DNA from: Pontiella sulfatireligans
Lineage (GTDB): Bacteria; Verrucomicrobiota; Kiritimatiellia; Kiritimatiellales; Pontiellaceae
Reading direction: 5' to 3'
Assembly: GCF_900890705.1 (NCBI RefSeq)
Contig: NZ_CAAHFH010000002.1
Coordinates: 1,798,001-1,862,000 of the forward strand
Length of the DNA stretch: 64,000 nucleotides
The notes under the pieces are model-generated. The model was not told where the DNA came from and ran no database searches. It saw only the letters and a list, made by a program, of their open reading frames with translations. A program made the translations under genes and the position numbers. This document shows, piece by piece, positions 21,303-49,383 of the stretch; within the stretch, counting starts at the first letter, position 1; every line of letters starts with the position of its first letter.

Positions 21303-23981
21303 TCAGTCCACCAGAATAACTTTTTTCAGTTCACAGCGGAACGCTCGAAGCACCTGCTCCGACTCCGGATTGCCGGCGAGGTTTTTCCACTCGTGGGGAT
21401 CGTTCCGGTGGTCGTACAATTCTTCCTCGCCGTTGCGGCAGTGGATGTAGCGGTAACGCTCGGTACGGAGGCTGAAATGCTGGTCGGCGGCGTTTGCGGG
21501 AACGTTCTGCTCCACCGGCACGGTGGAGGCTGAGGCCGCCAGGGAGAAGGCCGGTCCATCCCATTTTCCAACCTCTGGATGTTCAAGCAGCGGGCGCAGC
21601 GAGAAGCCGTCGAGTTTGTGCGGTTCGGGCAAGCGGGCATAGTCGATAAAGGTTGGGTAGAGGTCGATCAACGACACCGGCGTTGTGCATGCCTGGTTTG
21701 TCGCCACGCCTGGGCCGGAAACCACCAACGGGATGCGGACGCTCTCCTCCCACGGGGAATATTTAAACAGGTATTCTTTTTCGCCCATGTGGTAGCCGTG
21801 GTCGCTGGTGAAAACAATGATTGTGTTGGCTGCATATGGACTCTGCTCCAGTGCATCGAGCACTTTGCCGGTCTGGTCGTCGACAAACGCTACGCACGCG
21901 AGATACGCCTGCGTCCATTTCCGCAACTGCTCGTCGCCGCCGTTATTCATGATGGTTCGGTATTTTTCCCAGCCCCACGGCTGCGCAATGTCCTCCTGCT
22001 CGGTAAGGATTTTCGCGCAGTCGGCCGCATCGTTTTCGAGAATGGGCGCGAGTTCGACGGATTCGAGCGGGAAGAGATCGAAATATTCCTGCGGCGCATA
22101 CCACGGCGAATGCGGACGCGTGAAGCCGATGGTCAGCAGAAACGGGGCTTCGTGTTTTTTCTCCAGAAAAGCCACGGCCTCGGCGGCACAAACTTCATCC
22201 GGCATGGGATCGCGGTCGTGGCCATTGCGGAACTGCCAAGGCTTGCCGTCGTAAAACATCGTCCAGCCATATTCATCGCCATAGGGTTTTAGATCCTGGA
22301 TCGGGCCAAAGCCGTCGCCCCACCCGCCTTCCTTGCGCAGCTTCGCGGGCATCCAGGGAGGCAGTACGCCTTGCTGCAGGTTTTCGGGTTTTCCGTCGTT
22401 CGGAAGCGGCCCGAAGTTGCCTTTGGTTCCGAAGCCTGGAAATCCGTCGGAATTCTCGAAGATGGAAAAATCTTCGTGGCCGTTGTGATGGATTTTGCCG
22501 GTTGCAAAGTTGCGGTAGCCGTTGGCCGTGAAATGTTCGAACAATGTGGCGGCGGTTCCAAGCTTCGGATTCTTTTTCCAGTGGTTGATCTGCTGCTTGT
22601 AGCCATAGTAGCCGGTCGTGGTTGGATGCAGCCCGCTCCATAGACTGGCGCGCGACGGGCCGCACAGCGGACAGTTTGAAGCGGCATTCGTGAAGCGCAC
22701 GCCGCGCTTCGCCAGCCGGTCGATATTGGGTGTACTAGCCTGCGGGTGGCCGCCCATCCCGGCAATCGAATCATTTAGATCGTCACAGATGATCACCACA
22801 ATGTTTGGTTTCTGAAGCGCATAGTACGCCGGCTTGGGCTGGAAGTTCCGGTCAAACAACAACGGATACGCCGTTCGCCCCGGTACGGGCCAGTTGGCCT
22901 TCCAGGTATACCGGTCGGAGACGCCCCAGACGGTCACCCGCTCAATATGCTCGCTGTTCTTGCGAAACACCTCAAACACGGCGCGGTATTTTTCCGCCTG
23001 CTCGTTGAGCACCTCCATGGGAATGGAGTTTGAGTAGGGATTGAGTTCCGCACGAAGCTCCTCGCGCCGATTGACATCAGCACCGTGATATTCGCTGGCC
23101 CTCGGCAGCACCCCGATGTCCAACTCGGTGATGCTGACCTTCAAGCCCGTCGCAGCAAGGATATCGATGGAGTCCTGCAGCTGCTCAATCTCGGGATAGT
23201 CCAACTGCCAGTGCGCCTGCATGCCGACGCCATGGATCGGGACGCCTTTGGCTTTCAGGCCCCGCACCATGCCGGCGGCAAATTCAACCTTGGCCCGGTT
23301 CGCCATGCTGTAGTCATTGTAGAGCAGCCGAGCTTCCGGATCGGCTTCGTGAGCGAACCGAAAGGCCAGTTCGATATAATCCTCGCCAATAATTTGAAGC
23401 CACGGGGAGTCCCGATAAAAAGCCACCCGCTTCTTTTGCGGATTACCCTCTTCATCCAACGGCAGGCTTTCATCCACCACCATTTTCGTATCGATTGCTT
23501 CGTTGACCACATCCCAATATTTGATGCGGCCCTTGTAGCGACCGACCACGGTGTGAATGTGGTTGCGCATCCGCTCAATGAGCACCTCGCGGGTCACCGG
23601 GTTTCCGGCATCATCTTTGAACAGCCAGTCGGGGGTCTGCGAATGCCAGACCAACGCATGGCCGACGACGGCCAACCCGCTCTCCTCGCAAAACGCCATG
23701 AATTCATCGGCTTGGTCAAAATTGAAGAAACCCTCCTTCGGCTGAAGGTATTCCATCTTCATCAGGTTCTCGGCGGTGATGCAATTAAACTCCCGCGCCA
23801 CCACATCGCGTTCCTTTTTATTCTGACGCATGGGATAGACATACTGATGGTTCACACCGCGGCTGCCCAGAGCGGTGCCCATCAGAAAATCTTCGGCATA
23901 GACGTCTTTCAGCGGGGCGCTGAGACTGCTGGATGCCGATGCTCCGAGAATGCACAACATGATCTTGAAAATTGGTTTCAT
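21303..23981 (-). CDS. GH10 xylanase-sulfatase fusion
   Basis: 892 residues. Signal peptide (to ~22); GH10 domain ~25-389 with acid/base Glu161 (DVVNEAID), nucleophile Glu286 (ITELDIG), substrate-site HALVWHSQTPDW and VTVWGVSDRYTW. A type I sulfatase begins immediately at ~391 (KPNIVVIICDDLND), with the formylglycine Cys at 440 (CGPSRASLWSG) and later FTSDHGYHMGEK. There is essentially no linker, and the sulfatase has no signal peptide of its own. GH10 cuts beta-1,4-xylan; the sulfatase resembles the iduronate-2-sulfatase-like group. Both catalytic sets look intact. The fusion implies a sulfated xylan-type substrate processed on one chain. AGAGGG precedes the start; the sulfatase gene upstream ends 25 bp away. 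Confidence 0.93.
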   Translation of the reverse strand: MKPIFKIMLCILGASASSSLSAPLKDVYAEDFLMGTALGSRGVNHQYVYPMRQNKKERDVVAREFNCITAENLMKMEYLQPKEGFFNFDQADEFMAFCEESGLAVVGHALVWHSQTPDWLFKDDAGNPVTREVLIERMRNHIHTVVGRYKGRIKYWDVVNEAIDTKMVVDESLPLDEEGNPQKKRVAFYRDSPWLQIIGEDYIELAFRFAHEADPEARLLYNDYSMANRAKVEFAAGMVRGLKAKGVPIHGVGMQAHWQLDYPEIEQLQDSIDILAATGLKVSITELDIGVLPRASEYHGADVNRREELRAELNPYSNSIPMEVLNEQAEKYRAVFEVFRKNSEHIERVTVWGVSDRYTWKANWPVPGRTAYPLLFDRNFQPKPAYYALQKPNIVVIICDDLNDSIAGMGGHPQASTPNIDRLAKRGVRFTNAASNCPLCGPSRASLWSGLHPTTTGYYGYKQQINHWKKNPKLGTAATLFEHFTANGYRNFATGKIHHNGHEDFSIFENSDGFPGFGTKGNFGPLPNDGKPENLQQGVLPPWMPAKLRKEGGWGDGFGPIQDLKPYGDEYGWTMFYDGKPWQFRNGHDRDPMPDEVCAAEAVAFLEKKHEAPFLLTIGFTRPHSPWYAPQEYFDLFPLESVELAPILENDAADCAKILTEQEDIAQPWGWEKYRTIMNNGGDEQLRKWTQAYLACVAFVDDQTGKVLDALEQSPYAANTIIVFTSDHGYHMGEKEYLFKYSPWEESVRIPLVVSGPGVATNQACTTPVSLIDLYPTFIDYARLPEPHKLDGFSLRPLLEHPEVGKWDGPAFSLAASASTVPVEQNVPANAADQHFSLRTERYRYIHCRNGEEELYDHRNDPHEWKNLAGNPESEQVLRAFRCELKKVILVD

Positions 23982-24006: not shown

Positions 24007-25707
24007 TCAGGGCGCAGGCAATACGTTCAGTTCCATGGTGGCTTTAACCGGCTCGTTTGTTCCATCCGAAACACTGACCGCAAAAACATTCATGCCAATG
24101 TCGCCGGCGGACGGCGTTCCCTCAATCCGGCCATAGTTTGCATTGGCAATGGAGAGCCATGCGGGGCCGCTAATCTTGGCGAAAACGAGTTCGTCGGCAT
24201 CAACATCCGACACGCGCCAATTGATGTAAGTCATGTAGGGCTGGCCAGCGGTTGCCTCTTTCTGCTGAAACGTCTGCGATTTCCAAACCGGTGGCTCGTT
24301 ATTGATTGTCCCGAGACCGGAAGTTATATCCCTCGCCGTGACTGCTTCGTTGTGGCGCTCAAGCCGTCGCGCCAGTTTTTCAACGATCGGTGCATATTCC
24401 GGATTCTCGGAAACATTAATATTTTCATCCGGATCCTTTTTATGGTCGTAAAGCATGCGACTGCCGTCGGTCCACTCCGAATAGGAATAGCGTTCGGTCA
24501 CCACATTCTCACCACCGTGGTAGCGGCTGAAAGCCGCAGTCTTCCAATCCATCGAGGGCTGGCCCAACAGCGGAACAAAGCTCTTTCCCTGAAGATGTTC
24601 AGGCATTGGAAGACCGGCCAGTTCGCAAAGCGAGGGGTAGATGTCGACAAACTCCACGAGCGCATCGGTTCGCTTCCCTTTGTTGAATCCGGGCGCACTG
24701 ATCATCAAGGGCGTATAGGTGGAGGTGTTGAACAGGGCATGCTTGCACCAAAGTCCATGCTCGCCCAGCTGCCATCCGTGATCGCCCATCAGAATCACAA
24801 TGGTATCATCGCGTAGTTCCAAACGCTCCAGCTCATCGAGCAGCTTTCCGACCATGGCGTCGGTGTAGGACACACAGGCATAGTAGCCATGAATCAATTT
24901 GCGGGCCGTCGCGTCAGAGACCGGCCCATTGGTCGGCATGCCGCCATAGCCGTCGCGCAATTCATTCCACTGATGGATCGCATTCGACGGGGCCCCCTTC
25001 GGGACAAACGGATTATCGGCCAGCTCCAGTTTTTCAGGGTCATACATGTCCCAATATTTTTTCGGCGCGTTGAAGGGCAGGTGCGGCTTGGTGAAGCCCG
25101 CGGTAATGAAGAAGGGGGTCCCCTCCTCCTTTGCGCGGCGGATGTCGCCAATAACCTTTTCGGCCAAGGCGCCTCCGGGATAGGCGTTGTCCGGCACATC
25201 CGCATCTTCGTAGGCCGTCATCTCAGCCCATTCCTTATCTTGGTTTTCCGGTTTCAAATAGACCCGAAAATCATTCGGTCGATGGATCTCGTGCCACGAA
25301 TTCGTGTTGTCATCCGCGTGATGATAGATCTTCCCGCTGGAGATGGTGGTGTATCCATTCGACTTAAAGTGCGTGGGGATGTCCGGAATGCCCGCCGCAT
25401 CCTCCTGCGCCCTGGTATAGTAGGTCACGAAGCGGTCGGCCGTCGGATAGAGGCCGGTCAGCAGGCTGGCGCGCGATGCGCCGCACACCGGAACCTGCAC
25501 GTAGGCCCGATCGAACACAACGCCCTGCTCCGCCAACCGATCAATATTCGGAGAAACCGTTTCGTCATGACCATAGCAACCCAGCTGCGGCCGCAGGTCG
25601 TCGATCATAATGAAGAGAATATTCGGCGCCGCCGGTTCGGCCATGCAGCTCCCGGCCACAATTATGCCGGCCATCGGAATTAAAAAGCGTAGTGAAAGTT
25701 TCATCAT
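24007..25707 (-). CDS. Exported sulfatase with C-terminal Ig-like domain
   Basis: About 566 residues. Export signal (FLIPMAGIIVAGSCMA; a lipobox reading is possible but not ideal), then NILFIMIDDLRPQLG and the formylglycine site CGASRASLLTG (Cys75), where the usual Pro is Ala. The sulfatase core ends near residue 455. The last ~100 residues (PPVWKSQTF, INWRVSDVDADELVFAKISGPAWLSI, VSVSDGTNEPVKATMELNV) read as a cadherin/He_PIG-type Ig-like fold, perhaps for binding. The sulfatase resembles the one fused to GH30 in this window. The start is one of two adjacent ATGs (25707 or 25704), with AGAAGG upstream. Confidence 0.92.
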   Translation of the reverse strand: MMKLSLRFLIPMAGIIVAGSCMAEPAAPNILFIMIDDLRPQLGCYGHDETVSPNIDRLAEQGVVFDRAYVQVPVCGASRASLLTGLYPTADRFVTYYTRAQEDAAGIPDIPTHFKSNGYTTISSGKIYHHADDNTNSWHEIHRPNDFRVYLKPENQDKEWAEMTAYEDADVPDNAYPGGALAEKVIGDIRRAKEEGTPFFITAGFTKPHLPFNAPKKYWDMYDPEKLELADNPFVPKGAPSNAIHQWNELRDGYGGMPTNGPVSDATARKLIHGYYACVSYTDAMVGKLLDELERLELRDDTIVILMGDHGWQLGEHGLWCKHALFNTSTYTPLMISAPGFNKGKRTDALVEFVDIYPSLCELAGLPMPEHLQGKSFVPLLGQPSMDWKTAAFSRYHGGENVVTERYSYSEWTDGSRMLYDHKKDPDENINVSENPEYAPIVEKLARRLERHNEAVTARDITSGLGTINNEPPVWKSQTFQQKEATAGQPYMTYINWRVSDVDADELVFAKISGPAWLSIANANYGRIEGTPSAGDIGMNVFAVSVSDGTNEPVKATMELNVLPAP

Positions 25708-25822
25708 AATAGCCTTCTGTAGAATTTGATTTATGTACACATGATATGACTGCAGTCTATCGATGTAAACCGCGACAATTGAGCCTTAAATGGGGAAATA
25801 TGAAACCACGGCATGCGTGCTT

Positions 25823-30650: not shown

Positions 30651-33600
30651 CTAAGGCTTGAAGAGAATCCGGATGCGCCCGAATCGGTTGGTGGCGGTTT
30701 CGGTGGTCTCGAGATCTCGTACAGTCACCCGCTCCCAGTCGGAGTCAATCGGCACAACCGTCTCCGTTAAGACCGGACTTATCCAGACATTGGAAACCAG
30801 GTTGCTCGTGAATTCTGGAATATATTCCAAATCGTAAGCACCGCACCGGCGCAAGTATTCGAGTTCCAATGCCTGGAAACTATTCGTGTCGGCAATTTGA
30901 TAGGTCGGCAGTCCGGATGTTCCAATGCCTGGAAGCAACACATGGTAGTCGTTGGTCGTCATATCCAGATTAAACGCATACTCGAACAGGTTGATGACGG
31001 TGTCGCTATCCGCATCCGCATCGAGCAGCGCATCCGCGCCGGACAACCCGGCCTCGACCAACGTCGCCGCGAAGGAAGTCTCTGCATAGATTTCAATGGA
31101 GTCGATCCAGACGTCCGCATCGTCGCCGCCAAACTGCAACCGGATTTCTGCGTCGGGATCGACGCCGGAAAGATAGTCCAGCTGGATGCCGGTAAATTCA
31201 TAGGATCGACTGACCGTATCAATCGGCACGTCCAGCTGGAGATAAGCATTGGTGTTGTTATTCTTATTGCGCCACAGAATACGCAGCTCACGATCCGCCG
31301 CGGCCCGGGCCTCGAACCGGAAGGTGTAGAGTTTGCCAGCCTGTGCAGGCACAATCTGCTCAAGCGCAATTTTATAAGGCGAAGTAGTCCCGTCTGTAAT
31401 ATCCACATACAACTCCAAATCCGGCGCTGCTCCAACGGTGGCAAAAGAGACTGTTGCATCGGCATGGATATTTTCCGACCAGTTGTTCAGACCATCTTCA
31501 AACTCTCCATTGACAACCAGGTTATCGCCGGAAGCATTCGATGGAGGGTTCAGTTCATCCAGCCGCGCCTGAAGCTGCGCTTCGAGCGAAGCAACGTCGT
31601 CGGCGTATTCGGCGTGAGCCACCACATTCGTGTCTTCGCGGGGATCCAGGAAGTGGTCGTAGAGTTCGCGCTCGACGAAAATGTTGGAATTCTGCACGCG
31701 CCACTCCGTATAGCGGTATCGGTCGGTGCGCATGGAGTAGCCCATGTTGCCGCTGCGCGGATATTGGCTGAGCGCATCATCGTCGCCCGTCGAATCCGGG
31801 TTTTGCAGGAGCGGCACCAGGCTGTCGCCTTCCAGCTGCACAGGGTGCGGAATGCCGCATAGATCAAGCAGCGTTGGATAGAGGTCGACGGCTTCGGTGA
31901 GCGCGTCGATCTGAGAGGCGCCGGGCATCCACGGCACTTTCACGATCATGGGAATGCGCGTGGCGCGTTCAAAGTTGGTATGCTTCGTCCATTGGCCGTG
32001 ATCGCCGAGATGCCAGCCGTGGTCGCCCCAGACGACAACGATGGTATTGTCCGCCAATCCTTCGGCCTCGAGCCCTGCCATGAGCCGGCCAAGCTGCGCA
32101 TCCATGTAAGAGACGCTCGCGTAGTAGCCGTGAATGAGTTCTTTCTCTTGCGCATCGGAAACAGGGCCGGTGGCAGGAATGCCGTCATAGTTGCGCAGCT
32201 CGCCCCAGGAGGTGTAGGCGAAGGTGGAGGCATCAACCGCATGATCGTCCGTATGCGGCAGCACCAGGTCGTTGGTGGTGTACATATCCCAGTAGGTTTG
32301 TGGAGCAACAAAGGGAAGGTGCGGGCGGACATAACCCACGCCATAGAAGAAAGGCTGCTTTGTTTTCAGATCGGCCAGCTTCAGAATGGCTTCGTCGGTC
32401 ACCGCGCCATCGCGATAGACGTTGTCAGTCACGTTGGTGCATTCAGTCGGAGGATTACCCGGCCCCAGCGAACCGTAGACTCCCGGACCTGAGGACCATG
32501 GCTCGCTCCATGAAAGATCATCGTTCAGATTTCCGTGGTATACTTTTCCGATCCCGACGGAATAGTAGCCATAATCCTGCAGGTATTGCGGGAGGGTTTC
32601 AACCCATGGGATGGTGTCGCGGAAGTTGGTCGTCAGGTCGAACACCTGAGTGGAGTCCGGACGCATGCCGGTCATAAGGCTGGTGCGCGACGGCGAGCAA
32701 ACCGCCTGCTGCACGTAGGCGCGGTTAAACTGATAACCGTCTGATGCGAGCTGATCCATGTTCGGCGTGATCATTTGCGCCGCGCCATAGCCGCGGGTTT
32801 CCGGACGGAGGTCGTCGACACAGATCATTAGGATGTTGGGGTTGGCCGGCGCGGATGGAGGTGTAGCCGAAAGATCAAGCGTGGTGATGGATTCGGCAGG
32901 GATTGCAACAGAGGCGGCCGGGTTAAACACACCGATGTTCGTGCAGTTGAATGCATCGGTAGATCGGTAGATATCTCCTCCCGAAATTGAGATATCGACA
33001 AAAGAGATATCCAGATGCGCGGTGCTAGTATCATCATTAACGATGACAACCGTTACCTTCGTTTCATCCGGACTGATATACGCTGAAATATCTATGGCAT
33101 CCTCGGAAGAAACGGCATCCAAACGTCGCCAATCGGCATTGATGAATGCGGAAAAATGTTTAAACGCATAATATTCCGGCGTGATGATGTAGCTCGACGA
33201 ATCCGGGATATCGATGAGTCCCTGCTCGCCGTTCCAATAGAGCGACCAGTAGAAGTAAGAAGACACTTCCTCGATCGTCAGCGCGTTATGCATCAGCCTC
33301 GCCAGATTAAGTTTTCTGACGAGCGGAGAATTCGTGTTGGCATCGAGCACACAGTACTCCGTCTGAAACAGCGGCTTATAGCCATAGTCGGTATTAAACT
33401 CGGCCATGTTCGAATTAAGCACATCGGGATTCTCGCCTACGTTATTTTGGTAGTAATGATGCGCAAAACCATACGCATGGAATGGATGGATCAGATTATC
33501 GATATAAGCATCCAGCTTGTTGAATGAAATCGTTTCCGGCCCGAGCATTTTCGGCATGGCCACTGTTCCTTTGCGAAGGGCCAGCTCCTGCCAGACGGCT

Positions 33601-34916
33601 TCGAATACCTTATTGTAACCAGCGAAGTTGGTCGTCTCAACCGGCTCAAATCCGCAGCTATTATAATCCGGATGCCAGTTTGGTTCGTTCTGAATGCTGA
33701 TATAATCGGCATCAACGCCTTCAGAATTGTAATAATCCAGACTATCGGCCCACCATGCTGCATAATCACCATATCGGTATCCATTGACATCAGAGTCTAG
33801 CGTCGCATCATCTGATCCTGCCTGCGATCCCGTGCTTTTCAGGTATGCGGGCGGTGTCCAGGATGACATCAGGATTTTCAACGGCTTTCCCAAGGCCGCC
33901 TCACCCAATTGGATCGTAGCAACCGTATCGTCCACCTTGTTCACATAGCCATCATGGTCATACACATTCTGGATTCGGAAAATATCGAGGCTCAGATCCC
34001 GGAACAACAGATTGGCGAGTTCTGTAGAATTGTTGTTGCTGATGAGCCGGTTGATGTAAAACGCACCGGAGGCACCAAATCCCTCGATTTTCTGATGGCG
34101 CAATCCGCCGTCCACCACCGTGGCGGTCGGAGCGGAAGCCCCCTGAACCGAAAAGAGTTCCACTCCAATATTGACGCCGTTCGCGACTGTGGCTCCGCGG
34201 ACTGCGTCGATGCGGAAGCCGACCCATGTGATGCCGGAGAAGGTCGGAGTTGAAACACCGCCAATGATGCCGGCCTCCGTGGAGGTGTTGGCCGTAGGGG
34301 TGAAACTGAAATAGGACAACGTCGTTGCTTCGAATGAAAAAACAGTGCAGGAAACGAGAGGCTGCGGGGCGGAAATATGATAGCCCGAGCTGTCCTTGAG
34401 CACGAACCGTATCGTGGTGGATGAAACCGCCCCGTTGGGATTGATATACCCCGCCTCGCCGCTCACCGTGTCGCCGGCGGCATCCATCAGAATCAGGCCG
34501 GAATCCAGCCCGTTCAGGAAATCCTCCTGCTCGAAAAGATACAAGCCGGACGAGGCCTCGCCCGCAATACCAGCGCCTGCATTCCACCGAACTTTGAGGC
34601 CGGCATTCGCCCGGTTGTTCGCGGACCACATGCTCTCCCCTTCTTCTTCAAACCCGCCATATACAGACTGACCGGTGTAGCCGGGGCTGGAAATCGAATC
34701 CAACGTGGTCGAGCTTTCGCTGAAGAGCAAGTCGCTGGTCTGATTGATGGCGCTTGAAATCGTGTCGGCATCAAAGTCGACCAGGTTTACAGCCTGAGCG
34801 GGAAAGGCTCCCCCAACCAGAAACACGCTCATTAAGTAAAAACATGATTTCAGTTTCATAAGACCACTCTTTTTGCGGGTTACTGCAGTATTCAACAAAT
34901 TCGCGGTTCGCTTCAT
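30651..34916 (-). CDS. GH30 glucuronoxylanase-like / sulfatase / CBM fusion
   Basis: 1421 residues. Order: signal peptide (residues ~20-42), recurring surface module (~44-262, with GLYLFEQEDFLNGLDSG), GH30 domain (~266-685) with acid/base Glu411 (SIQNEPNW) and nucleophile Glu520 (LFQTEYC), type I sulfatase (~692-1121) with formylglycine Cys740 (CSPSRTSLMTG), a CBM4/9-like fold (~1130-1275, NLVVNGEFEDGLNNWS), and the C-terminal module (~1276-1421, LDADADSDTVINLFEYAF) shared with other giant proteins here. GH30 enzymes of this type cut glucuronoxylan next to GlcA branches. It overlaps the upstream gene by ATGA; a start at Met20 (34859) would begin directly with the signal peptide. Confidence 0.9.
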   Translation of the reverse strand: MKRTANLLNTAVTRKKSGLMKLKSCFYLMSVFLVGGAFPAQAVNLVDFDADTISSAINQTSDLLFSESSTTLDSISSPGYTGQSVYGGFEEEGESMWSANNRANAGLKVRWNAGAGIAGEASSGLYLFEQEDFLNGLDSGLILMDAAGDTVSGEAGYINPNGAVSSTTIRFVLKDSSGYHISAPQPLVSCTVFSFEATTLSYFSFTPTANTSTEAGIIGGVSTPTFSGITWVGFRIDAVRGATVANGVNIGVELFSVQGASAPTATVVDGGLRHQKIEGFGASGAFYINRLISNNNSTELANLLFRDLSLDIFRIQNVYDHDGYVNKVDDTVATIQLGEAALGKPLKILMSSWTPPAYLKSTGSQAGSDDATLDSDVNGYRYGDYAAWWADSLDYYNSEGVDADYISIQNEPNWHPDYNSCGFEPVETTNFAGYNKVFEAVWQELALRKGTVAMPKMLGPETISFNKLDAYIDNLIHPFHAYGFAHHYYQNNVGENPDVLNSNMAEFNTDYGYKPLFQTEYCVLDANTNSPLVRKLNLARLMHNALTIEEVSSYFYWSLYWNGEQGLIDIPDSSSYIITPEYYAFKHFSAFINADWRRLDAVSSEDAIDISAYISPDETKVTVVIVNDDTSTAHLDISFVDISISGGDIYRSTDAFNCTNIGVFNPAASVAIPAESITTLDLSATPPSAPANPNILMICVDDLRPETRGYGAAQMITPNMDQLASDGYQFNRAYVQQAVCSPSRTSLMTGMRPDSTQVFDLTTNFRDTIPWVETLPQYLQDYGYYSVGIGKVYHGNLNDDLSWSEPWSSGPGVYGSLGPGNPPTECTNVTDNVYRDGAVTDEAILKLADLKTKQPFFYGVGYVRPHLPFVAPQTYWDMYTTNDLVLPHTDDHAVDASTFAYTSWGELRNYDGIPATGPVSDAQEKELIHGYYASVSYMDAQLGRLMAGLEAEGLADNTIVVVWGDHGWHLGDHGQWTKHTNFERATRIPMIVKVPWMPGASQIDALTEAVDLYPTLLDLCGIPHPVQLEGDSLVPLLQNPDSTGDDDALSQYPRSGNMGYSMRTDRYRYTEWRVQNSNIFVERELYDHFLDPREDTNVVAHAEYADDVASLEAQLQARLDELNPPSNASGDNLVVNGEFEDGLNNWSENIHADATVSFATVGAAPDLELYVDITDGTTSPYKIALEQIVPAQAGKLYTFRFEARAAADRELRILWRNKNNNTNAYLQLDVPIDTVSRSYEFTGIQLDYLSGVDPDAEIRLQFGGDDADVWIDSIEIYAETSFAATLVEAGLSGADALLDADADSDTVINLFEYAFNLDMTTNDYHVLLPGIGTSGLPTYQIADTNSFQALELEYLRRCGAYDLEYIPEFTSNLVSNVWISPVLTETVVPIDSDWERVTVRDLETTETATNRFGRIRILFKP

Positions 34917-40679: not shown

Positions 40680-43358
40680 TTAAGACGCAGGCGTTTCTGT
40701 TTGAATTGATTCAATAATCATTTTTTCCAAAACAACATTGTCGTCTATTCGGAAAATCTTCAGCACGTGTTCTCCCGGGCTGATGCCTACAAATCTGACA
40801 TCGATCGTATGCTTGTTGTTAACCACTGCTTTAGCCCAGGCTTTTTCCTCTGCTGTATGCTGACCAGCCCCCGTTGCATGTAAATCAAAGTTGAGGATTT
40901 GCACGGGCTCATCGTCTATCGTCACAGCCAAACGCATACCGCCCTGGCCTATTGTGTCCAGTGTCGGGCTCAGCTCTAGGGTGACGTTTGCACTACCGTA
41001 AAAGGGTTGCTCTATTTTATACGTCAGAGCAACGTTGTCGCTGACACGGGTTGCTGCTTTGCCCTGTGGCAGGGCCACCACGGCGGCGCTGGATTGCCCC
41101 AAATGCTCTACTCGGGTCCAAGTTAATCCATTGTTATTGTGCGCGTTGCTGAACTCGCCTGCATTGATTATTTGAATATGGACTGGTTGGGGCATCTCCA
41201 CAAAGCTCACTGCGATGTCATTTTTTACGCCATCTACTTTAGATACCGGGGGCATAATCTGCTGTTCGGGATGCCTCCACGTGACGTAGCTCATATGTAT
41301 CTGATTAATCATGCCATCCCATTTGCCATCGTTAATCTGATGATACTGATCCGTCAGCTCCGCATCGCGCTGAAAGTTGCGCGTTACGATCTGTTGAAAG
41401 TGATTAGCGCGGGCGTCCCCTTCTTCGGCCAGTACTTTATTCCAGGCCGCTGCGAAATACATTTCGTACAGGTTACTCATCGCGGAAATCGGCCATTCGA
41501 CGAGTTGGAAAAATGCAGCGTAGTGCTCTTCACCTATCTTCGCTTTCACGCGTATCATGTCACGTTGTAGCTGTCGCCATTTTTTTACATGTTGGTAGAA
41601 CGGACCCCCTTTAAGGCTTGGTAGACCGATGCTCCCGATGGCGAAGGTATTCTGGTTCAGCAGCTCAGGTTTACGCGTTGCTGCGTAGGTACCATAACGT
41701 TGAATTAACCCGGCGATCTCAAGGGCCAGTTCACGGCCAAACGTTTGTTCCGCAAAACCGGTCGCGTATTGTGCCAACGCCTGAGTATCCATCGCTTCAG
41801 GATCCCATGCCATGGTAAGAAAGAAGTCGATAGGGTACTCAATGGGCTTGAGATCACCTACGTTAACCACCCACAAATCTCTCGCGCCACGTTGATAGGA
41901 CAAGTCCATTTGCTGCCAGACCTTGCCAATTTGAATGGTGTTGTTCCATTTGTAATTTCGAGGTACTCCTACGTAATCAAAGTGATAGTAAACGCCAAAG
42001 CCCCCTTCTCGATCCAACTCTTTTGTGGGCAATCGGCGTACCAGCCCCCAGTTATCGTCGGCGAACAACAAGGTAACGTCATCAGGCACCGTCATGCCTT
42101 TTTCGTAGTAGTCTAATACTTCTTTGTACAGCGCCCATACCTGGGGCGTAGCATCAGCCGGAGCGTCCGTCACATCCGCAATAATGTCTCTTTGATCGCT
42201 GACGATTTTTTCCAATAAATCGATCGCAGTACCTTCTGACATCGGCTCGTCGCCATCCCCTCTCATCCCAACCGTGACGAGTGATTCATAGGACGATCCA
42301 TTGCCTTTAGACATCATGCGCTCGATGCCGGCACGCCAAAACGTTTTAATATTTTCGCTATTCGTTTCGTAATCCCACTCACCAACCCCAATGCATGGAT
42401 TGCGTGTTTTTCGACGCCACTCTGCGTGGGCTCGCGCCATTGGCTCGTGATGGGACGTGCCCATAACAATCCCCATGTTATCGGCTAACGCAGTATTCTT
42501 TGGATCATCCAAATGAAACGACTTGCCCCACATAGCAGGCCAAATGTAGTTCCCTTTCAAGCGCAGTATCAAATCGAACACCCGTTCATACATCCCCGAA
42601 TTAACACCACCGAACTTCTTCTCAGCCCAGCCCTTTAATGCCGGATCTTCGTCATTAATGAAAATGCCGCGATAGCGCACTTTGGGTTGATCCGTCACGC
42701 TGCCTGCAGTAACAAATACATTTTTATGCTGCACAGTAGGGACATCAGCAAACCAATACCAAGGGGACACACCCATTTGTTCGGAAAGATCAAAGGCGCC
42801 ATAAATTGCACCGCGACGATCAGCGCCCACAATCACCAACACATGCTCAACATCTGGCCATGGCTTTTCAACAACGGCTACTTGAAAAGCTTCCCATTCA
42901 CCTTTAATGGTGGAGATGTCTACCTTTCCTTGTGAAACAAGATCGTCAATGAGCGGGTGGTTGCCCAGAACACCCATTAAAACGGCTGGGTGTTTAAGGG
43001 TATCGCCGGCTTCAATAATGCGGGTCGCAGAACCGCCTATTTTATATAAATCTTCGGCGAAAGCTGTTGCGCCCCGTTTTACAGCCGGATCAGCGCTCTC
43101 AGAAATGACGATGGGCAGCGGTTGGCCATTGTTGATAAGAGGCATGCCGCTCTTACCTTCAAAGCAAACCGACGCGGGTGGTTCACTGGCAAATACGCCA
43201 GATGATGAGATCACACACACAAACAATGCAGTTTGTATGATTGCCCGCAGGGTGAGTTTTCGGCTAGCCGTTGCGATGACCTGCCGAGCAGTCAACAACA
43301 TCTCTGCCTCCCGCAGCATTCCGATGATCTGTTCTGTAGTGTATTTCTTAATTGTCAT
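40680..43358 (-). CDS. GH115 xylan alpha-glucuronidase with IS3-derived N-terminus
   Basis: 892 residues. The body (~60-890) matches GH115: GRRGAIYGAFDLSEQMGVSPWYWFADVP-type blocks, YRGIFINDEDPALKGW, GNYIWPAMWGKSF, TVGMRGDGDEPM, LLFADDNWGLVRRLP, GGFGVYYHFDYVGVPRNYKW and TMAWDPEAMD. GH115 removes GlcA or 4-O-methyl-GlcA from glucuronoxylan. The signal peptide (IIQTALFVCVISSSGVFA) is at residues ~39-57, not at the start. The first ~34 residues (YTTEQIIGMLREAEMLL) are the beginning of an IS3 OrfA transposase; see the relic entry. Base composition looks lower in G+C than neighbours, suggesting recent acquisition. The 30-bp gap to the next gene suggests cotranscription. Confidence 0.92.
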   Translation of the reverse strand: MTIKKYTTEQIIGMLREAEMLLTARQVIATASRKLTLRAIIQTALFVCVISSSGVFASEPPASVCFEGKSGMPLINNGQPLPIVISESADPAVKRGATAFAEDLYKIGGSATRIIEAGDTLKHPAVLMGVLGNHPLIDDLVSQGKVDISTIKGEWEAFQVAVVEKPWPDVEHVLVIVGADRRGAIYGAFDLSEQMGVSPWYWFADVPTVQHKNVFVTAGSVTDQPKVRYRGIFINDEDPALKGWAEKKFGGVNSGMYERVFDLILRLKGNYIWPAMWGKSFHLDDPKNTALADNMGIVMGTSHHEPMARAHAEWRRKTRNPCIGVGEWDYETNSENIKTFWRAGIERMMSKGNGSSYESLVTVGMRGDGDEPMSEGTAIDLLEKIVSDQRDIIADVTDAPADATPQVWALYKEVLDYYEKGMTVPDDVTLLFADDNWGLVRRLPTKELDREGGFGVYYHFDYVGVPRNYKWNNTIQIGKVWQQMDLSYQRGARDLWVVNVGDLKPIEYPIDFFLTMAWDPEAMDTQALAQYATGFAEQTFGRELALEIAGLIQRYGTYAATRKPELLNQNTFAIGSIGLPSLKGGPFYQHVKKWRQLQRDMIRVKAKIGEEHYAAFFQLVEWPISAMSNLYEMYFAAAWNKVLAEEGDARANHFQQIVTRNFQRDAELTDQYHQINDGKWDGMINQIHMSYVTWRHPEQQIMPPVSKVDGVKNDIAVSFVEMPQPVHIQIINAGEFSNAHNNNGLTWTRVEHLGQSSAAVVALPQGKAATRVSDNVALTYKIEQPFYGSANVTLELSPTLDTIGQGGMRLAVTIDDEPVQILNFDLHATGAGQHTAEEKAWAKAVVNNKHTIDVRFVGISPGEHVLKIFRIDDNVVLEKMIIESIQTETPAS

Positions 43359-43440: not shown

Positions 43441-46044
43441 TTACTCCGCGAGAGGAACCTGTTTATAGAGCTGTTTTCGCATTTGCTTCAGGATCTCCTG
43501 GTGTTCCGGGCTGGACACTAGATTCGTCCATTCATGAGGGTCATTCCGGTGGTCATACAGTTCTTCCTCGCCATTTCGGCAACGAATGTAACGATGGCGC
43601 TCCGACCGCACACTGAAGTGCTGATTGTCTGCTTTGGCCGGCACATTCCGCTCCGCGGGAACCTTGGAAGCGCAAGCAGAAATGGAAACCGACGGACCGG
43701 ACCATTTTCCGTCCGCGGGGTTTTCAAGCAACGGTCTCAATGAAACCCCGTCGAGCGTGTGCCCGGGAGCCGATAGGCCGGAATAATCGACGCAGGTCGG
43801 ATAGAGGTCAATCAGTGAGACCGGCGTTGTGCATTGACGGTTTTTCGCCACGCCCGGCCCGCTAATAACCAGCGGGATTCTGACGCTCTCTTCCCACGGG
43901 GAATACTTAAAGAGAAAATCCTTTTCGCCCATATGATACCCATGGTCGCTCGTAAAGATCACCAGCGTGTTCTCTGCATACGGACTGTCTTCCAGTGCAT
44001 GGAGAACCTGACCAATCATATCGTCCGCAAATGCCACACAGGCCAGATAAGCCTGAGTCCACGCCCGCAATCGCTCCTCCCCTCCATTCTTCATGATGGA
44101 ATCGTACTTTTCCCATCCCCACGGATGGGCGAGATCGTGCTGCTCCGTCAAAATTTTCGCACAATCCGCCGCATCGTTTTCGAGGAGAGGTGTCAGCTCA
44201 ACCGATTCAAGGGGAAAGAGGTCAAAGTATTTCTTCGGAGCATACAAAGGGGTATGGGGTCGTGAAAACCCGACGGTCAGAAGAAAAGGTTTGTCGTGTT
44301 TCTTCCCCAGAAAACCAACCGCTTCGGCCGCATGCACTTCATCGGGCAGCGGGTCGCGGTCGTGTCCGTTTCTATATTCCCAGGGCTTCCCGTGATAAAA
44401 GGAGGTCCATCCATACCCTTCTCCGAAAGACGAGAGATCCTCAACGGGGCCAAATCCATCGCCCCATCCACTCCCCTTACGCCAGTCCTCCGGCCACCAC
44501 GGGGGGGCGATTCCGTGTTTTTTATTTTCGGGCTTCCCATTGTTGGGAACGGGACCGAAGCTCGGGAGGCTGCCAAATCCGGGAAACCCATCCTCATTTT
44601 CAAATATACTCAGAACCTCGTGTCCGTTGTGATGGATTTTACCGGTGGAAAAGTTCCTATATCCGTTGGCCGTAAAGTGCTCAAACAGCGACTTTGTTTT
44701 TCCAATGACTGGATTTTCATTCCAATGATCCGTTGGCCGGCCCGTACCATAAAAACCAGAGGCATGCGGATACAGTCCGCTCCACAAACTGGCACGCGAT
44801 GGTCCGCACAGCGGGCAGTTCGATGCCGCATTCGCAAAGCGCACCCCTCCCTTGATCAAGCGGTCGATATGGGGCGTCTTGGCCTGCGGATGGCCCCCCA
44901 TTCCCGCGATCGTATCGTTCAGGTCGTCGCAGATAATGACGACGATATTCGGAGGAGACTTCGTTTGGGCCAATGCAACCAACTCTGTAGTTTCTGTTAC
45001 TAGCCAGAGAAAGGGGGCCTGACCGTGAAAATCGCCCAACGTCCGGGGTCGGTTTAGATAAAATTCGATATCGTCCTGCTGTCCGGTGCCAATGCAAATC
45101 TCGCGGAGTTGGCCCTTTCGGTCCACATGGGCACACAGGGCCTTAACGGCCTGCTTCACTGCCGGTTCATAATCTGATGCATCCAACCAGCCGCGATTGA
45201 GGCCGACACTCATGGCAAAGGCAAACATGGCGGTACCGGAACTTTCAGCCCAAGCGTATTCATAGTCGATGAGCTGACGCCACATGCCGTTGTCGGATTG
45301 ATAGGCCAGAAGCGATGCCATCATCTTCCGGTATGCTTTCATAATCTCGGGCTGGAGTTTGTGATCGGCAGGCAAATCGCTGAGTACTTCGGCCAGACTG
45401 ACAGCGACCCAACCGTTACCGCGTCCCCAATGGTAGTGAAATTTAGGACCGTGATAGAACAAACCATTATCCGTTTGGAGCTTCTTAAGATAAGCGGCCA
45501 ATTGCAGGGCCGCACGATCGGCGTACTTCATCTCTTTGGTCGCTCTATAGGCCTGAATCTGAAGCATCCCCACCATATACATATCGTCAATCCACCAGCG
45601 TGTCTGGGAGGTTAGACCGTCTTCTCGGGGCTTTTCCCACTGCTGATCCGCAAACCACAATCCCAGCTCGAGATGCCGTTTGTCGCCGTTAATCATATAG
45701 ATCTGTAGCGAGAGAGCCCCGGTGACAAACTGATCGACATGCGGATGGCGGGAAATGAGATCGTTGCCCGGTTCCAGTAGTTTTTCGTAGCGGGCAATGA
45801 TTCGTTCAAGCCGTTCGGTGTCGTTTTGCTTTTGAGCAAAGCGAAGAGCCCCAACTGCCGCACACGTTTCGGCATAATGAAGTCCCTGATCTCCATAATA
45901 CATGGTTCCGCGGGAAAGCAGGTTGTCAATGACACGGCCGGCAAGTTCCTTGGGATCATTACTCGGGACCCCCGAAAGGTTGGTGTCCGCCATTGAAACA
46001 GTGATGCTGGTTAGCAGGACTAGAGAAGTGATGATTGATTTCAT
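43441..46044 (-). CDS. GH105 unsaturated glycuronyl hydrolase-sulfatase fusion
   Basis: 867 residues. Signal peptide (to ~19); GH105-type (alpha/alpha)6 domain ~30-360 with RWWIDDMYMVG (catalytic Asp near 153), YHWGRGNGWVAVSLAEV and AESSGTAMFAFAM. A short linker (QTKS) leads into a type I sulfatase at ~365 (PNIVVIICDDLND) with formylglycine Cys413 (CGPSRASLWSG) and FTSDHGYHMGEK. GH105 enzymes remove the unsaturated uronic acid left by lyases. The sulfatase is visibly close to the one fused to GH10 in this window, sharing long motifs such as NDAADCAKILTEQ. AAGGAACC precedes the start. Both domains look complete. Confidence 0.92.
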   Translation of the reverse strand: MKSIITSLVLLTSITVSMADTNLSGVPSNDPKELAGRVIDNLLSRGTMYYGDQGLHYAETCAAVGALRFAQKQNDTERLERIIARYEKLLEPGNDLISRHPHVDQFVTGALSLQIYMINGDKRHLELGLWFADQQWEKPREDGLTSQTRWWIDDMYMVGMLQIQAYRATKEMKYADRAALQLAAYLKKLQTDNGLFYHGPKFHYHWGRGNGWVAVSLAEVLSDLPADHKLQPEIMKAYRKMMASLLAYQSDNGMWRQLIDYEYAWAESSGTAMFAFAMSVGLNRGWLDASDYEPAVKQAVKALCAHVDRKGQLREICIGTGQQDDIEFYLNRPRTLGDFHGQAPFLWLVTETTELVALAQTKSPPNIVVIICDDLNDTIAGMGGHPQAKTPHIDRLIKGGVRFANAASNCPLCGPSRASLWSGLYPHASGFYGTGRPTDHWNENPVIGKTKSLFEHFTANGYRNFSTGKIHHNGHEVLSIFENEDGFPGFGSLPSFGPVPNNGKPENKKHGIAPPWWPEDWRKGSGWGDGFGPVEDLSSFGEGYGWTSFYHGKPWEYRNGHDRDPLPDEVHAAEAVGFLGKKHDKPFLLTVGFSRPHTPLYAPKKYFDLFPLESVELTPLLENDAADCAKILTEQHDLAHPWGWEKYDSIMKNGGEERLRAWTQAYLACVAFADDMIGQVLHALEDSPYAENTLVIFTSDHGYHMGEKDFLFKYSPWEESVRIPLVISGPGVAKNRQCTTPVSLIDLYPTCVDYSGLSAPGHTLDGVSLRPLLENPADGKWSGPSVSISACASKVPAERNVPAKADNQHFSVRSERHRYIRCRNGEEELYDHRNDPHEWTNLVSSPEHQEILKQMRKQLYKQVPLAE

Positions 46045-46120: not shown

Positions 46121-47587
46121 TTAGGATGATGGGTGCAGCAGAAAAGCCTTTGCTGTTGGAGCATCCTCATCCTTCCAGCCATAGAACAGCAACATGCCAT
46201 CAACGATTTCACCGTTTGGTTCTACAACCGGCTGGATATGATTGAAGCGCCATCCGGGATACCGTTTTCTATCCGGCGTCAGATCCCGGAACTTTCTCCA
46301 GGTCTCCCCGTTATCCGCTGAAATCCACTCCTCAACGTTGCCGCCTCCACGATCATCCATATAGCCGCCCCGACGATACCCTTTGCCAGTGATTAGGTAT
46401 GCGTGAATGACGCCGTCTTCACCATGGATAAGATGGCCGCTGTTCCAGTAATGGTTTGAATGAGTAATTCTGGTTTTTCGCCATTCTCCGTTTTCGCGAC
46501 GGACATAATAAAAGTCATGCTTCGTCAGAGACGTCTCACCAGTGAGTATGTGCAGAAAGGTTGGCTCATCGTTCTTATCCAATGCGATGGCCGGAGGAAT
46601 GCCTGCCCCCCGCCAATCCGTGTCCCAGATAAGACAATGCTTCTTTGAGTAATCGAGATCGATCGGCGTCGTCAGCGTTTTTCCGTCCGCATTGACCACC
46701 TCATAAGTCTCTAGGTTGATCTTTACGTAATGAAGATTGTATTTCCGAATATCAACCTTCTTATCGTAACGCGGATTGAAGAGGCGCTCATTAGCCTTCT
46801 CTGTAATATTGTCGTCATAGTCAATATAGGCCATATGTAAATATTTTCCATCACGACTCGGCAAAGCAGTTCGATAAGCGGACCAGTCGGTTCTCCCCTT
46901 GATGTCTAGGTCGGTGACGTCCTGCTCCGGCCCAACCCATGTTTTTCCGTTGTCATCGCTGATGCGATACGTCCACGAGCTGGTATGCCCATCGGTTCGA
47001 TAGGTGATGACTTCTTTGTCATCATAAATGCGGAAAACCGTTTGGTAAGAAATCTGAGGAGCAATTTGGGGAGCCTCCTCCCATTCGATATCCACCACTC
47101 CTGCGGCGACAGGCTTGCTTGAGACAAGGTGTATGCCCGGCGTCCTGTGGCATCCATGGAGCACGTGCAGGAAATCGGATTCGTCAGCCCATATAATGGG
47201 GCTGTAATGGTGATCGGCATTCCTGGGTCCGATACGTACGGGTTCAGTGAACGTGCGCGATGTTGGATCATAACTGATGAACATCGGGTAGGCGTCACCC
47301 TTGAGGTTCTTTGTCGGGGTCGCGTCAGCATTGTAGACGATGTAGAGACGCCCATGCAGCAGGACAGACTGCGGTCGCTGCCGTGCGTCGTAAAGCATGT
47401 TGCGCTTTCCTCCGCTGCCGAATTCCAATATTTCGAATGCTTTTGGTTCTGCTTCCTTACAAGCAGCAACCTGCTCCACAGAGTTCTCTTCGATGTCCTC
47501 GGTTGATTGAGCGAATAGGTGCCCAGAAGCGAAGAGGCAACCTGCACCAATAAAAATTGGCAACAAAGCTGAAATCGTGTTTCTCAT
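46121..47587 (-). CDS. Exported BNR_4-type propeller protein (possible lyase or hydrolase)
   Basis: About 488 residues from ATG 47587 (AAGGG eight bases upstream); seven extra codons are open before it. Signal peptide (PIFIGAGCLFASGHLFA), then a BNR_4-like beta-propeller with DARQRPQSVLLHGRLYIVYN, DHHYSPIIWADESDFLHVLHGCHRTPG, YRISDDNGKTWVG and WISADNGETWRKF. Propellers of this class include ulvan lyases of families PL24/PL25, among other functions. Beside a GH105 enzyme, which needs a lyase product, a polysaccharide-lyase role is attractive but unproven. Confidence 0.75.
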   Translation of the reverse strand: MRNTISALLPIFIGAGCLFASGHLFAQSTEDIEENSVEQVAACKEAEPKAFEILEFGSGGKRNMLYDARQRPQSVLLHGRLYIVYNADATPTKNLKGDAYPMFISYDPTSRTFTEPVRIGPRNADHHYSPIIWADESDFLHVLHGCHRTPGIHLVSSKPVAAGVVDIEWEEAPQIAPQISYQTVFRIYDDKEVITYRTDGHTSSWTYRISDDNGKTWVGPEQDVTDLDIKGRTDWSAYRTALPSRDGKYLHMAYIDYDDNITEKANERLFNPRYDKKVDIRKYNLHYVKINLETYEVVNADGKTLTTPIDLDYSKKHCLIWDTDWRGAGIPPAIALDKNDEPTFLHILTGETSLTKHDFYYVRRENGEWRKTRITHSNHYWNSGHLIHGEDGVIHAYLITGKGYRRGGYMDDRGGGNVEEWISADNGETWRKFRDLTPDRKRYPGWRFNHIQPVVEPNGEIVDGMLLFYGWKDEDAPTAKAFLLHPSS

Positions 47588-47630
47588 AACATATGCCCTT
47601 ATTAACATTAAAAAAAAATACTTCCCGTTT

Positions 47631-48573: not shown

Positions 48574-49383
48574 TTATAGAATTCTTTGATCTTCAACTAT
48601 TCCGTTCCGGCCAGCAGCACGCATCGGTGTCGTCACCCAGACCGGATCTTTTTCGGCTTGCGGATAGACCCCCTTTCCAGATGCGCTAATCAGTCCTATC
48701 GTGGCTGGCTCCGAGATGGCGGCGGTTGCCGTAAACTTCGTCACTCCGAAGTTGACACCAGCACCTCCGATTGCAGGACCTTCTGCGCTCAGGAGGTAGC
48801 CAATAGAGTCGATGCTTTTGAACGTAGGAGTAGCCGCCGCTCCGATTACTGAGACGCCAGCTATAGTTGATGGATCATAGGCGTACCAGTTTGCGGTTAA
48901 TGCATTGACGCGGTACGAGGTGGCATGAGAGGCAGAAGCATCGGAAATGTAGAACTTCCCAGCTTCTTCGATCACAAAGTGCATCGTAGCCGAATTCAGC
49001 CTTGTGGTTTTAGAGACAAAGGCAGAGCCGATTTTTATGACATCCACGCCAGCTTCGAAGCTAACGCCGGGGGTCTTGAACGTGAACAAGGCTTCCCCTC
49101 CATTTTCGGTGGAGTCGTTCATCCGAATGAACGTTCCGTTTGCAGCTTTTAAACTCACAAGAGTCGTCGAGCGCTCGTTCATGGCGGCATAGATGGCCGG
49201 ACCGGTATAGTTTACGCCGGCGGAGGCGTATGTCGGAGTTGTCGTATTCAGCACGAAAGACGAGGGTGTGTTGTCAGAGTCGGCTAGAATCTGAGTGGCT
49301 GCGTCGAAATCCACGACCACAACGGCTTGTGCCGCCACGGAAAGCAACCCCATCATAATGGTAAATACATATCTCATCTTCAT
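48574..49383 (-). CDS. Surface module protein with disrupted PEP-CTERM tail
   Basis: 269 residues. Signal peptide (to ~20), then a single recurring surface module (~21-222: VVDFDAATQILADS, YTGPAIYAAMNERS, EEAGKFYISDASASHATSYRV, WYAYDPSTIAGVSVIGAAATP). After ISEPATIGLISASG the expected hydrophobic and basic end is missing; instead the frame runs on through VYPQAEKDPVWV. Dropping one G from the five-G run near 48671-48675 would give a short basic tail (SIRKPKKIRSG) and a stop. It is either a frameshifted PEP-CTERM protein, a phase-variable tract, or a sequencing error. AAGGCGA precedes the start. Confidence 0.75.
   Translation of the reverse strand: MKMRYVFTIMMGLLSVAAQAVVVVDFDAATQILADSDNTPSSFVLNTTTPTYASAGVNYTGPAIYAAMNERSTTLVSLKAANGTFIRMNDSTENGGEALFTFKTPGVSFEAGVDVIKIGSAFVSKTTRLNSATMHFVIEEAGKFYISDASASHATSYRVNALTANWYAYDPSTIAGVSVIGAAATPTFKSIDSIGYLLSAEGPAIGGAGVNFGVTKFTATAAISEPATIGLISASGKGVYPQAEKDPVWVTTPMRAAGRNGIVEDQRIL
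48721..49323 (-). repeat. Surface-module DNA repeat, copy 1
   Basis: About 600 bp encoding the module is nearly identical in DNA to copies at 55608-56206, 60188-60797 and 61121-61725. Copy 1 is the most diverged of the four. Confidence 0.8.

Follow-up and report, generated by a model that had tools for sequence, protein, structure and literature searches.

A sulfatase lineage joined to GH105 and GH10 glycosidases in Pontiella sulfatireligans

Two genes of Pontiella sulfatireligans carry closely related sulfatase domains on unrelated glycosidases, one of family GH105 and the other of family GH10. Both lie in the stretch of DNA analyzed here, a window of 64,000 nucleotides (contig NZ_CAAHFH010000002.1, positions 1,798,001 to 1,862,000), and we refer to them as GH105-Sb and GH10-Sb, where Sb denotes the sulfatase lineage that they share (Table 1). 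We consider it likely that Sb is an S1 carbohydrate sulfatase module attached to unrelated secreted glycosidases, with desulfation and cutting probably taking place consecutively. The sequences establish the architecture of the fusions, the kinship of their sulfatases, the unfused neighbours, a third partner and a mosaic block within the domain; from these we infer the direction of the GH105 event, the activity, the substrate and the cooperation of the halves. In the mechanism that we propose, Sb would have been joined without a signal peptide of its own, right from where its fold begins, to the C-terminal end of secreted glycosidases. Its partners are GH10 in three genomes of a single genus, GH105 in the window and, in genome G611, a GH120-type domain.

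Table 1. Positions in the window of the fusion genes, their parts and the neighbouring genes discussed
Feature	Position	Strand	Description
GH10-Sb, GH10-sulfatase fusion gene	21303..23981	-	892 aa
Sulfatase half of GH10-Sb	21306..22808	-	residue 392 onward (PNIVVIICDD)
GH10 half of GH10-Sb	22809..23981	-	residues 1-391; solved GH10 xylanases as relatives, best 4k68 (E 1.2e-96)
Sulfatase Sa	24007..25740	-	directly upstream of GH10-Sb
GH30-type-sulfatase fusion, third in the window	30651..34916	-	weak GH30 profiles, sulfatase, CBM_4_9; other sulfatase lineage
GH115	40680..43358	-	directly downstream of GH105-Sb; Pfam
GH105-Sb, GH105/GH88-sulfatase fusion gene	43441..46044	-	intact frame, 867 aa
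Sulfatase half (Sb) of GH105-Sb	43444..44955	-	residues 364-867
Mosaic block of Sb	44356..44580	-	sulfatase residues 126-200, protein residues 489-563
CGPSR formylglycine-type motif of GH105-Sb	44794..44808	-	residues 413-417
GH105/GH88 half of GH105-Sb	44956..46044	-	residues 1-363; start hydrophobic, signal-peptide-like
BNR_4 protein	46121..47608	-	directly upstream of GH105-Sb; sole PDB matches two PL25 ulvan lyase entries (E 7e-7, 4e-6)

Two fusions with a closely related sulfatase

The sulfatase halves of GH105-Sb and GH10-Sb are 72% identical over 499 amino acids (query residues 363-862, E 3.7e-267), and the next-best full-length sulfatases of the genome match at 46-47% (150 candidates scored); within the window genome alone, the two halves are each other's nearest. 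A preliminary description of the window had proposed from four motifs (IICDDLND, CGPSRASLWSG and two more) that a closely related sulfatase sits on both a GH105 and a GH10 enzyme. This holds, since each motif occurs once per fusion protein and is absent from the rest of the six-frame translation of the window, and the motifs are the visible part of the 72% identity, which over 499 residues rules out a chance likeness. At the DNA level the match between the two genes begins at nucleotides 1093 and 1174, at the PNIVVIICDD codons that start the sulfatase fold, and extends at 70% identity over 1427 columns. The glycosidase halves, which had been described as unrelated, give no mutual blastn match at E 1e-5, and DNA similarity is confined to the sulfatase half. 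Between the two sulfatase halves pN is 0.16 and pS is 0.80, with synonymous sites saturated, and these values speak for purifying selection.

Domain boundaries leave almost no linker in either protein. In GH105-Sb, Pfam places Glyco_hydro_88 (PF07470) at residues 52-353 (E 4.5e-57), Sulfatase (PF00884) at 365-756 (E 3.5e-49) and SGSH_C at 706-861, while in GH10-Sb the GH10 domain (PF00331, 24-390, E 8.7e-99) is followed by Sulfatase at 392-782 (E 2.7e-50) and SGSH_C at 733-888. The N-terminal half of GH105-Sb is labelled GH105 and not GH88 because of its solved relatives: ten PDB sequences match it, including YteR and entries named GH105, with 3k11 the best (E 1.6e-33). In the alignment with YteR its D104 and D153 stand opposite D88 and D143, the catalytic Asp pair of that enzyme; the solved chain 2gh4 has Asn at the position of the second Asp. 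Alongside its profile match, the GH10 half contains VNEA at 159 and ITELD at 284, presumably the acid-base and nucleophile motifs of a xylanase of this family.

Several features place Sb among the S1 sulfatases. The CGPSR motif fits the pattern C-x-P/A-S/T-R, and D10, D11, C50, R54, K106, H109, H234, D337 and K350 of the domain, presumably residues of the S1 metal and sulfate site, are invariant in 48 rows. A structure model of the Sb half (pLDDT 90.2, pTM 0.93) gave 463 Foldseek matches at E <= 0.001, of which the best 50 are sulfatases and related hydrolases, alkaline phosphatase superfamily sulfatases among them. By sequence and profile the best solved relative is 6hhm, the ulvan sulfatase P18_S1_7 of Formosa agariphila (E 5e-40, 5e-64, 3e-95), which among those best 50 of 463 matches also has the highest target-length TM-score (0.77) and ranks third by E-value. 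P18_S1_7 differs from the Sb fusions in standing alone and is 26% identical to Sb, and membership of Sb in subfamily S1_7, suggested by this nearest solved sequence, is a lead only. P18_S1_7 acts on xylose-2-sulfate, and two reviews disagree on whether its mode is endo or exo. AlphaFold2 applied to the whole GH105-Sb fusion with a six-row alignment gave a mean pLDDT of 52, good solely in the GH105 half. An anaerobic sulfatase maturase is encoded in the window genome. From the conserved residues and the selection on the domain, both halves of GH105-Sb are predicted to be likely active.

Unfused neighbours and further partners of Sb

Relatives of Sb were sought in four overlapping sets of genomes. 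Matches were found in 7 of 345 genomes of the class at E <= 1e-130 (best 4 candidates per genome), in 9 of 387 genomes of a phylum sample at 1e-120 (best 3 per genome), in 13 of 43 genomes of the Opitutia-type family f51 at 1e-130, and in 4 of 384 genomes sampled from the class of f51 at 1e-140 (best 4 per genome). Absences in these searches are soft because just the best few candidates were scored per genome.

The GH10-Sb architecture recurs in two genomes of the same genus as the window, G005 and G017, as open frames of 899 and 909 aa. Across the three genomes the GH10 halves share 78-82% and the Sb halves 76-81%, and the fused GH10 halves form one clade (100/99). This fusion looks like a product of merged neighbouring genes, as the same gene order exists unfused in 12 of the 13 Sb-bearing f51 genomes, where Sb is a separate gene with a leader-like start and a GH10 gene lies directly upstream (the copy in G603 is cut by a contig end). 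In these pairs the GH10 stop and the Sb start, taken at the nearest start codon, overlap by <=23 nt or are separated by a gap of <=24 nt. The surroundings agree as well: a relative of Sa precedes the fused gene in G005 and G017 as Sa itself does in the window, and one (59-65%) stands before the unfused GH10-Sb pair in 5 of the 12 f51 genomes (G634, G345, G417, G635 and G607). In G345, GH10 ends in KPAYHALRELKQ and a stop, and Sb opens with a leader, after which comes PNIVIIICDD; in the window protein the sequence is KPAYYALQKPNIVVIICDD. Loss of the stop codon and the leader from a pair like that of G345 would yield the fused form, and GH10-Sb most likely arose in place in this manner.

The thirteenth f51 genome, G611, encodes a GH120 insertion domain, CBM_6, a beta-helix and Sb in one open frame, in which Sb begins at the same point of the fold as in the window. 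A 91-N assembly gap lies within the later part of this Sb, with the remainder after the gap, and the glycosidase part matches the GH120 insertion-domain profile but not the whole GH120 profile. GH120 is a beta-xylosidase family. The G611 fusion looks like a separate event because its Sb groups with the f51 copies (87/83), and with GH10, GH105 and GH120-type attachments the Sb lineage has three glycosidase partners. A second Sb-like sulfatase (45-46% to Sb) is located directly behind Sb in G481 and G605 and is also present in G603 (L129:6432-9290; L150:6973-9327, minus strand; L153:609-2999, plus strand); Pfam finds a C-terminal Big_7 in the first two of these loci and CBM_4_9 in L129.

Among the genomes searched with the sulfatase half, where few best candidates were scored per genome, GH105-Sb was found in the window genome alone. 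With the GH105 half as query, 2 of 345 class genomes match at 1e-90 (best 5 candidates per genome), one being the window's own; the other, G004, holds close relatives of 62, 56 and 55% in frames of 475, 357 and 369 aa. In f51 the GH105 half matched 0 of 43 genomes at 1e-60, in a search run without a positive control.

Fusions of glycosidases with sulfatases are already known, and what appears to be a new variant is one traced sulfatase with several partners and unfused neighbours. In marine Bacteroidetes, a GH10 with a sulfatase domain occurs in polysaccharide utilization loci (PULs) predicted to act on sulfated xylan or a xylose-rich glycan (PMC6794258). Like GH10-Sb, that protein unites both domains and adjoins more sulfatases; unlike the window fusions it belongs to another phylum, and the accessible part of the source does not mention a GH105 version (PMC6794258). 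Our search of Bacteroidia matched 24 of 375 genomes at E <= 1e-75 (best 2 candidates per genome); 26 of the 27 matches listed involve the GH10 half alone and 1 of 27 the sulfatase half alone, and no protein matching both halves of GH10-Sb is among the matches listed for the 375 genomes. One ORF in L178 resembles a long GH10 fusion, and by eye it has no sulfatase motif. P36 GH78|S1_25 of Formosa agariphila likewise combines a glycosidase with an S1 sulfatase, and ulvan oligosaccharides are processed by its two domains one after the other (PMC8511951). It differs from the Sb fusions in being a rhamnosidase with a sulfatase of another subfamily, whose structure 6hr5 matches the Sb profile more weakly than 6hhm does. 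Multidomain sulfatases of Planctomycetes associated with Porphyra, joined like Sb to glycosidase and other domains, led to a proposal of adjacent-gene fusion and domain swapping (PMC4807772); those fusions were, in the portion of the source consulted, mainly estimated by protein length, whereas Sb is a single lineage traced over unfused neighbours and three partners. Glycosidases and sulfatases are described as neighbours in a paper on P. agarivorans, whose main text, as far as accessible, contains none of the words "fusion", "bimodular", "GH105" and "GH10" (PMC10880615). No published GH105-sulfatase fusion was found in a literature search on sulfatases fused to GH10, GH105 or GH78, which covered few subscription papers.

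Relationships among the sulfatases and a mosaic block

Protein trees of Sb were computed from 35 rows and from a 20-row subset that omits 15 of the 35 as long, partial or remote, including the partial rows of G611 and G603; the 18-row sets used for DNA trees and block tests also omit G321b and G309b. The window sulfatase halves, the congener GH10-Sb domains and unfused Sb form one clade, which comprises 20 rows of the 35-row tree (100/98) and 15 rows of the 20-row tree (100/100). Rather than falling in distant sulfatase subfamilies, the two domains thus represent one lineage placed on GH10 and on GH105, families known for endo and exo action respectively, and this part of the preliminary description is borne out. 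Its expectation that the two window sulfatases are exclusive sisters fails once other genomes are included, as the full-length protein rejects that pairing (AU p 0.0057). GH105-Sb pairs with the GH10-Sb of G017 in both protein trees (92/90 with 35 rows, 92/94 with 20 rows), and in the best full-length protein trees unfused Sb are interspersed among the four fused Sb of the genus. The 20-row tree rejects neither a clade of the four fused Sb (p 0.33) nor one of the three GH10-Sb (p 0.24). DNA trees join the four fused Sb (SH-aLRT/bootstrap 96.1/78 for codon positions 1+2, 99/87 for all positions) and do not resolve the order among them; the all-position tree has GH105-Sb beside, not inside, the three GH10-Sb (50.2/52).

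The conflict over the window pair apparently stems from a mosaic block at about residues 126-200 of Sb, in which GH105-Sb closely resembles the GH10-Sb of G017 but not that of the window. Over the whole domain 20 sites pair GH105-Sb with G017, against 4 and 3 for the other two pairings, and 13 of the 20 fall in residues 130-185, a density equalled in 0 of 20000 random draws. When residues 126-200 are removed, the four fused Sb form a clade (80/79, not starred) with GH105-Sb next to the group of three GH10-Sb (65/71). The data then reject neither a pairing of GH105-Sb with the window GH10-Sb (p 0.32) nor one with G017 (p 0.43). The block by itself rejects both the window pair (p 0.0005) and a clade of the three GH10-Sb (p 0.033); these p-values are descriptive because the boundaries were picked after the identities were seen. 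We read the block as a sign of recombination between sulfatase copies, the alternative being shared selection on a substrate loop.

These relationships bear on how GH105-Sb arose. Its sulfatase would be a close copy of the one in GH10-Sb, and two routes can be envisaged: a GH10-Sb copy may have had its glycosidase half replaced, or an unfused sister copy may have been captured. In the strict form of the second route, unfused Sb paralogues were joined independently to GH10 and GH105 and no glycosidase half was ever exchanged. We regard this as a serious possibility, somewhat short of probable: outside residues 126-200 GH105-Sb stands beside and not inside GH10-Sb, the all-position DNA tree agrees, and G611 demonstrates that independent fusion of Sb can occur, but the full-length protein joins GH105-Sb to the GH10-Sb of G017, and the window genome and its congeners yielded no unfused Sb at the thresholds used, with few candidates scored per genome.

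Gene setting, substrate and function

GH105-Sb is part of a minus-strand gene run from 49383 to 30651 with gaps of <=82 nt. The run begins with an unnamed protein, a DUF4861 protein, the BNR_4/PL25-like protein, GH105-Sb and GH115, and continues with a sulfatase, a PhoD-type protein, another sulfatase, a weakly agarase-like protein and the GH30-type-sulfatase fusion, which lies between GH10-Sb and GH105-Sb. GH105 enzymes need an unsaturated uronate (PMC8511951), and the lyase-like gene ahead of GH105-Sb fits this need. The presence of GH10, GH30 and GH115 suggests xylose and glucuronic acid, and from these neighbouring genes our guess for the substrate is a sulfated glycan of xylose and uronic acid. 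The same neighbours make it plausible that the GH10 and GH105 fusions serve one pathway, as had been proposed. P. sulfatireligans F21 has 480 sulfatases, and strains F1 and F21 are described in the accessible part of the source as not growing on unsulfated xylan (PMC7356697), which speaks against plain xylan and, at the level of the whole organism, fits a need for sulfated substrates.

Other genes of the window and related loci deserve mention in their own right. The weakly beta-agarase-like protein (34913-36064, minus strand, 383 aa, E 1e-6) has no Pfam match, and its relatives (49-67%) are found near Sb in several f51 loci; it is possibly an undescribed glycosidase of the Sb pathway. An IS66-type transposase in two adjoining frames (27249-28781, minus strand, NCBIfam NF033517) separates the gene groups of the GH30-sulfatase and GH10-Sb and is a possible agent of rearrangement. 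By eye, an N-terminal domain (VVDFDxATQ...) is repeated at 48574-49383, 53304-57413 and 57887-61789 (minus strand) and at the N-terminus of 30651-34916; the protein at 53304-57413 (minus strand) has no Pfam match, and in f51 the N-terminal part of the GH30 fusion finds matches of 37-40% among the proteins encoded right after Sb. The GH30-type fusion has counterparts in G005 and G017 (L098:149-4366, L099:1248-5072), with identities of 87% and 66% in the sulfatase part and 49% and 47% in the N-terminal part, an imbalance attributable either to uneven divergence or to another exchange. Elsewhere in the window genome sulfatases are fused with GH32, GDSL, a weaker GH10 match and GH57-type domains (L105:2620-6204, L106:3429-7127, L107:4185-9440, L112:3430-6525), and several with non-catalytic domains; this is not a census because the loci were chosen by frame length with 150 candidates scored. 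A 1215-aa frame of the same genome (L103:3595-7239, minus strand) combines GH88/GH105, DUF4861 and ADP-ribosylglycohydrolase domains, and DUF4861 also occurs two genes upstream of GH105-Sb in the window. In a Saprospiraceae genome, L155:1438-4368 (plus strand) encodes a sulfatase with a chondroitinase B-type (PL6-like) domain in the opposite domain order.

In the function that we propose, each fusion would probably take off sulfate and cut a sulfated xylose/uronic-acid glycan in consecutive steps within one secreted protein, and the glycosidase partner would decide between endo and exo cutting. It is unlikely that the halves do not cooperate at all and that the fusions came about neutrally from gene order, each half serving its own substrate. 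The richness of the genome in sulfatases, its several other long sulfatase fusions with varied partners and the near-absence of a linker would suit such non-cooperation; however, three genomes retain GH10-Sb and conserve both of its halves, one sulfatase has acquired three different partners, and the domains of GH78|S1_25 do act in consecutive steps (PMC8511951). An assembly or annotation artefact, or a decaying gene, can be dismissed even though GH105-Sb was found in one genome, as the frame is intact within a 2.76-Mb contig (genome of 7.4 Mb in 5 contigs), pN/pS is low and GH10-Sb recurs in two other assemblies. A bolder version of our consecutive-step proposal, which we put forward tentatively and on balance doubt, is that Sb is a portable desulfation module of one specificity, mounted time and again, at the same point of its fold, behind enzymes of a single sulfated xylose/uronic-acid pathway, whether endo-acting (GH10) or exo-acting (GH105, GH120-type); recombination of block 126-200 would then re-tune its substrate loops.

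The sulfated glycans of algae make up a large pool of carbon that is still poorly resolved, and most of the hundreds of sulfatases found in such bacteria have yet to be assigned a specificity. Because Sb occurs unfused beside GH10 and elsewhere fused to GH10, GH105 or a GH120-type domain, its specificity is tied to three glycosidases, and its substrate can therefore be narrowed by experiment. The lineage also offers the before-and-after states of a gene fusion, and with them a way of asking what fusing adds to catalysis.
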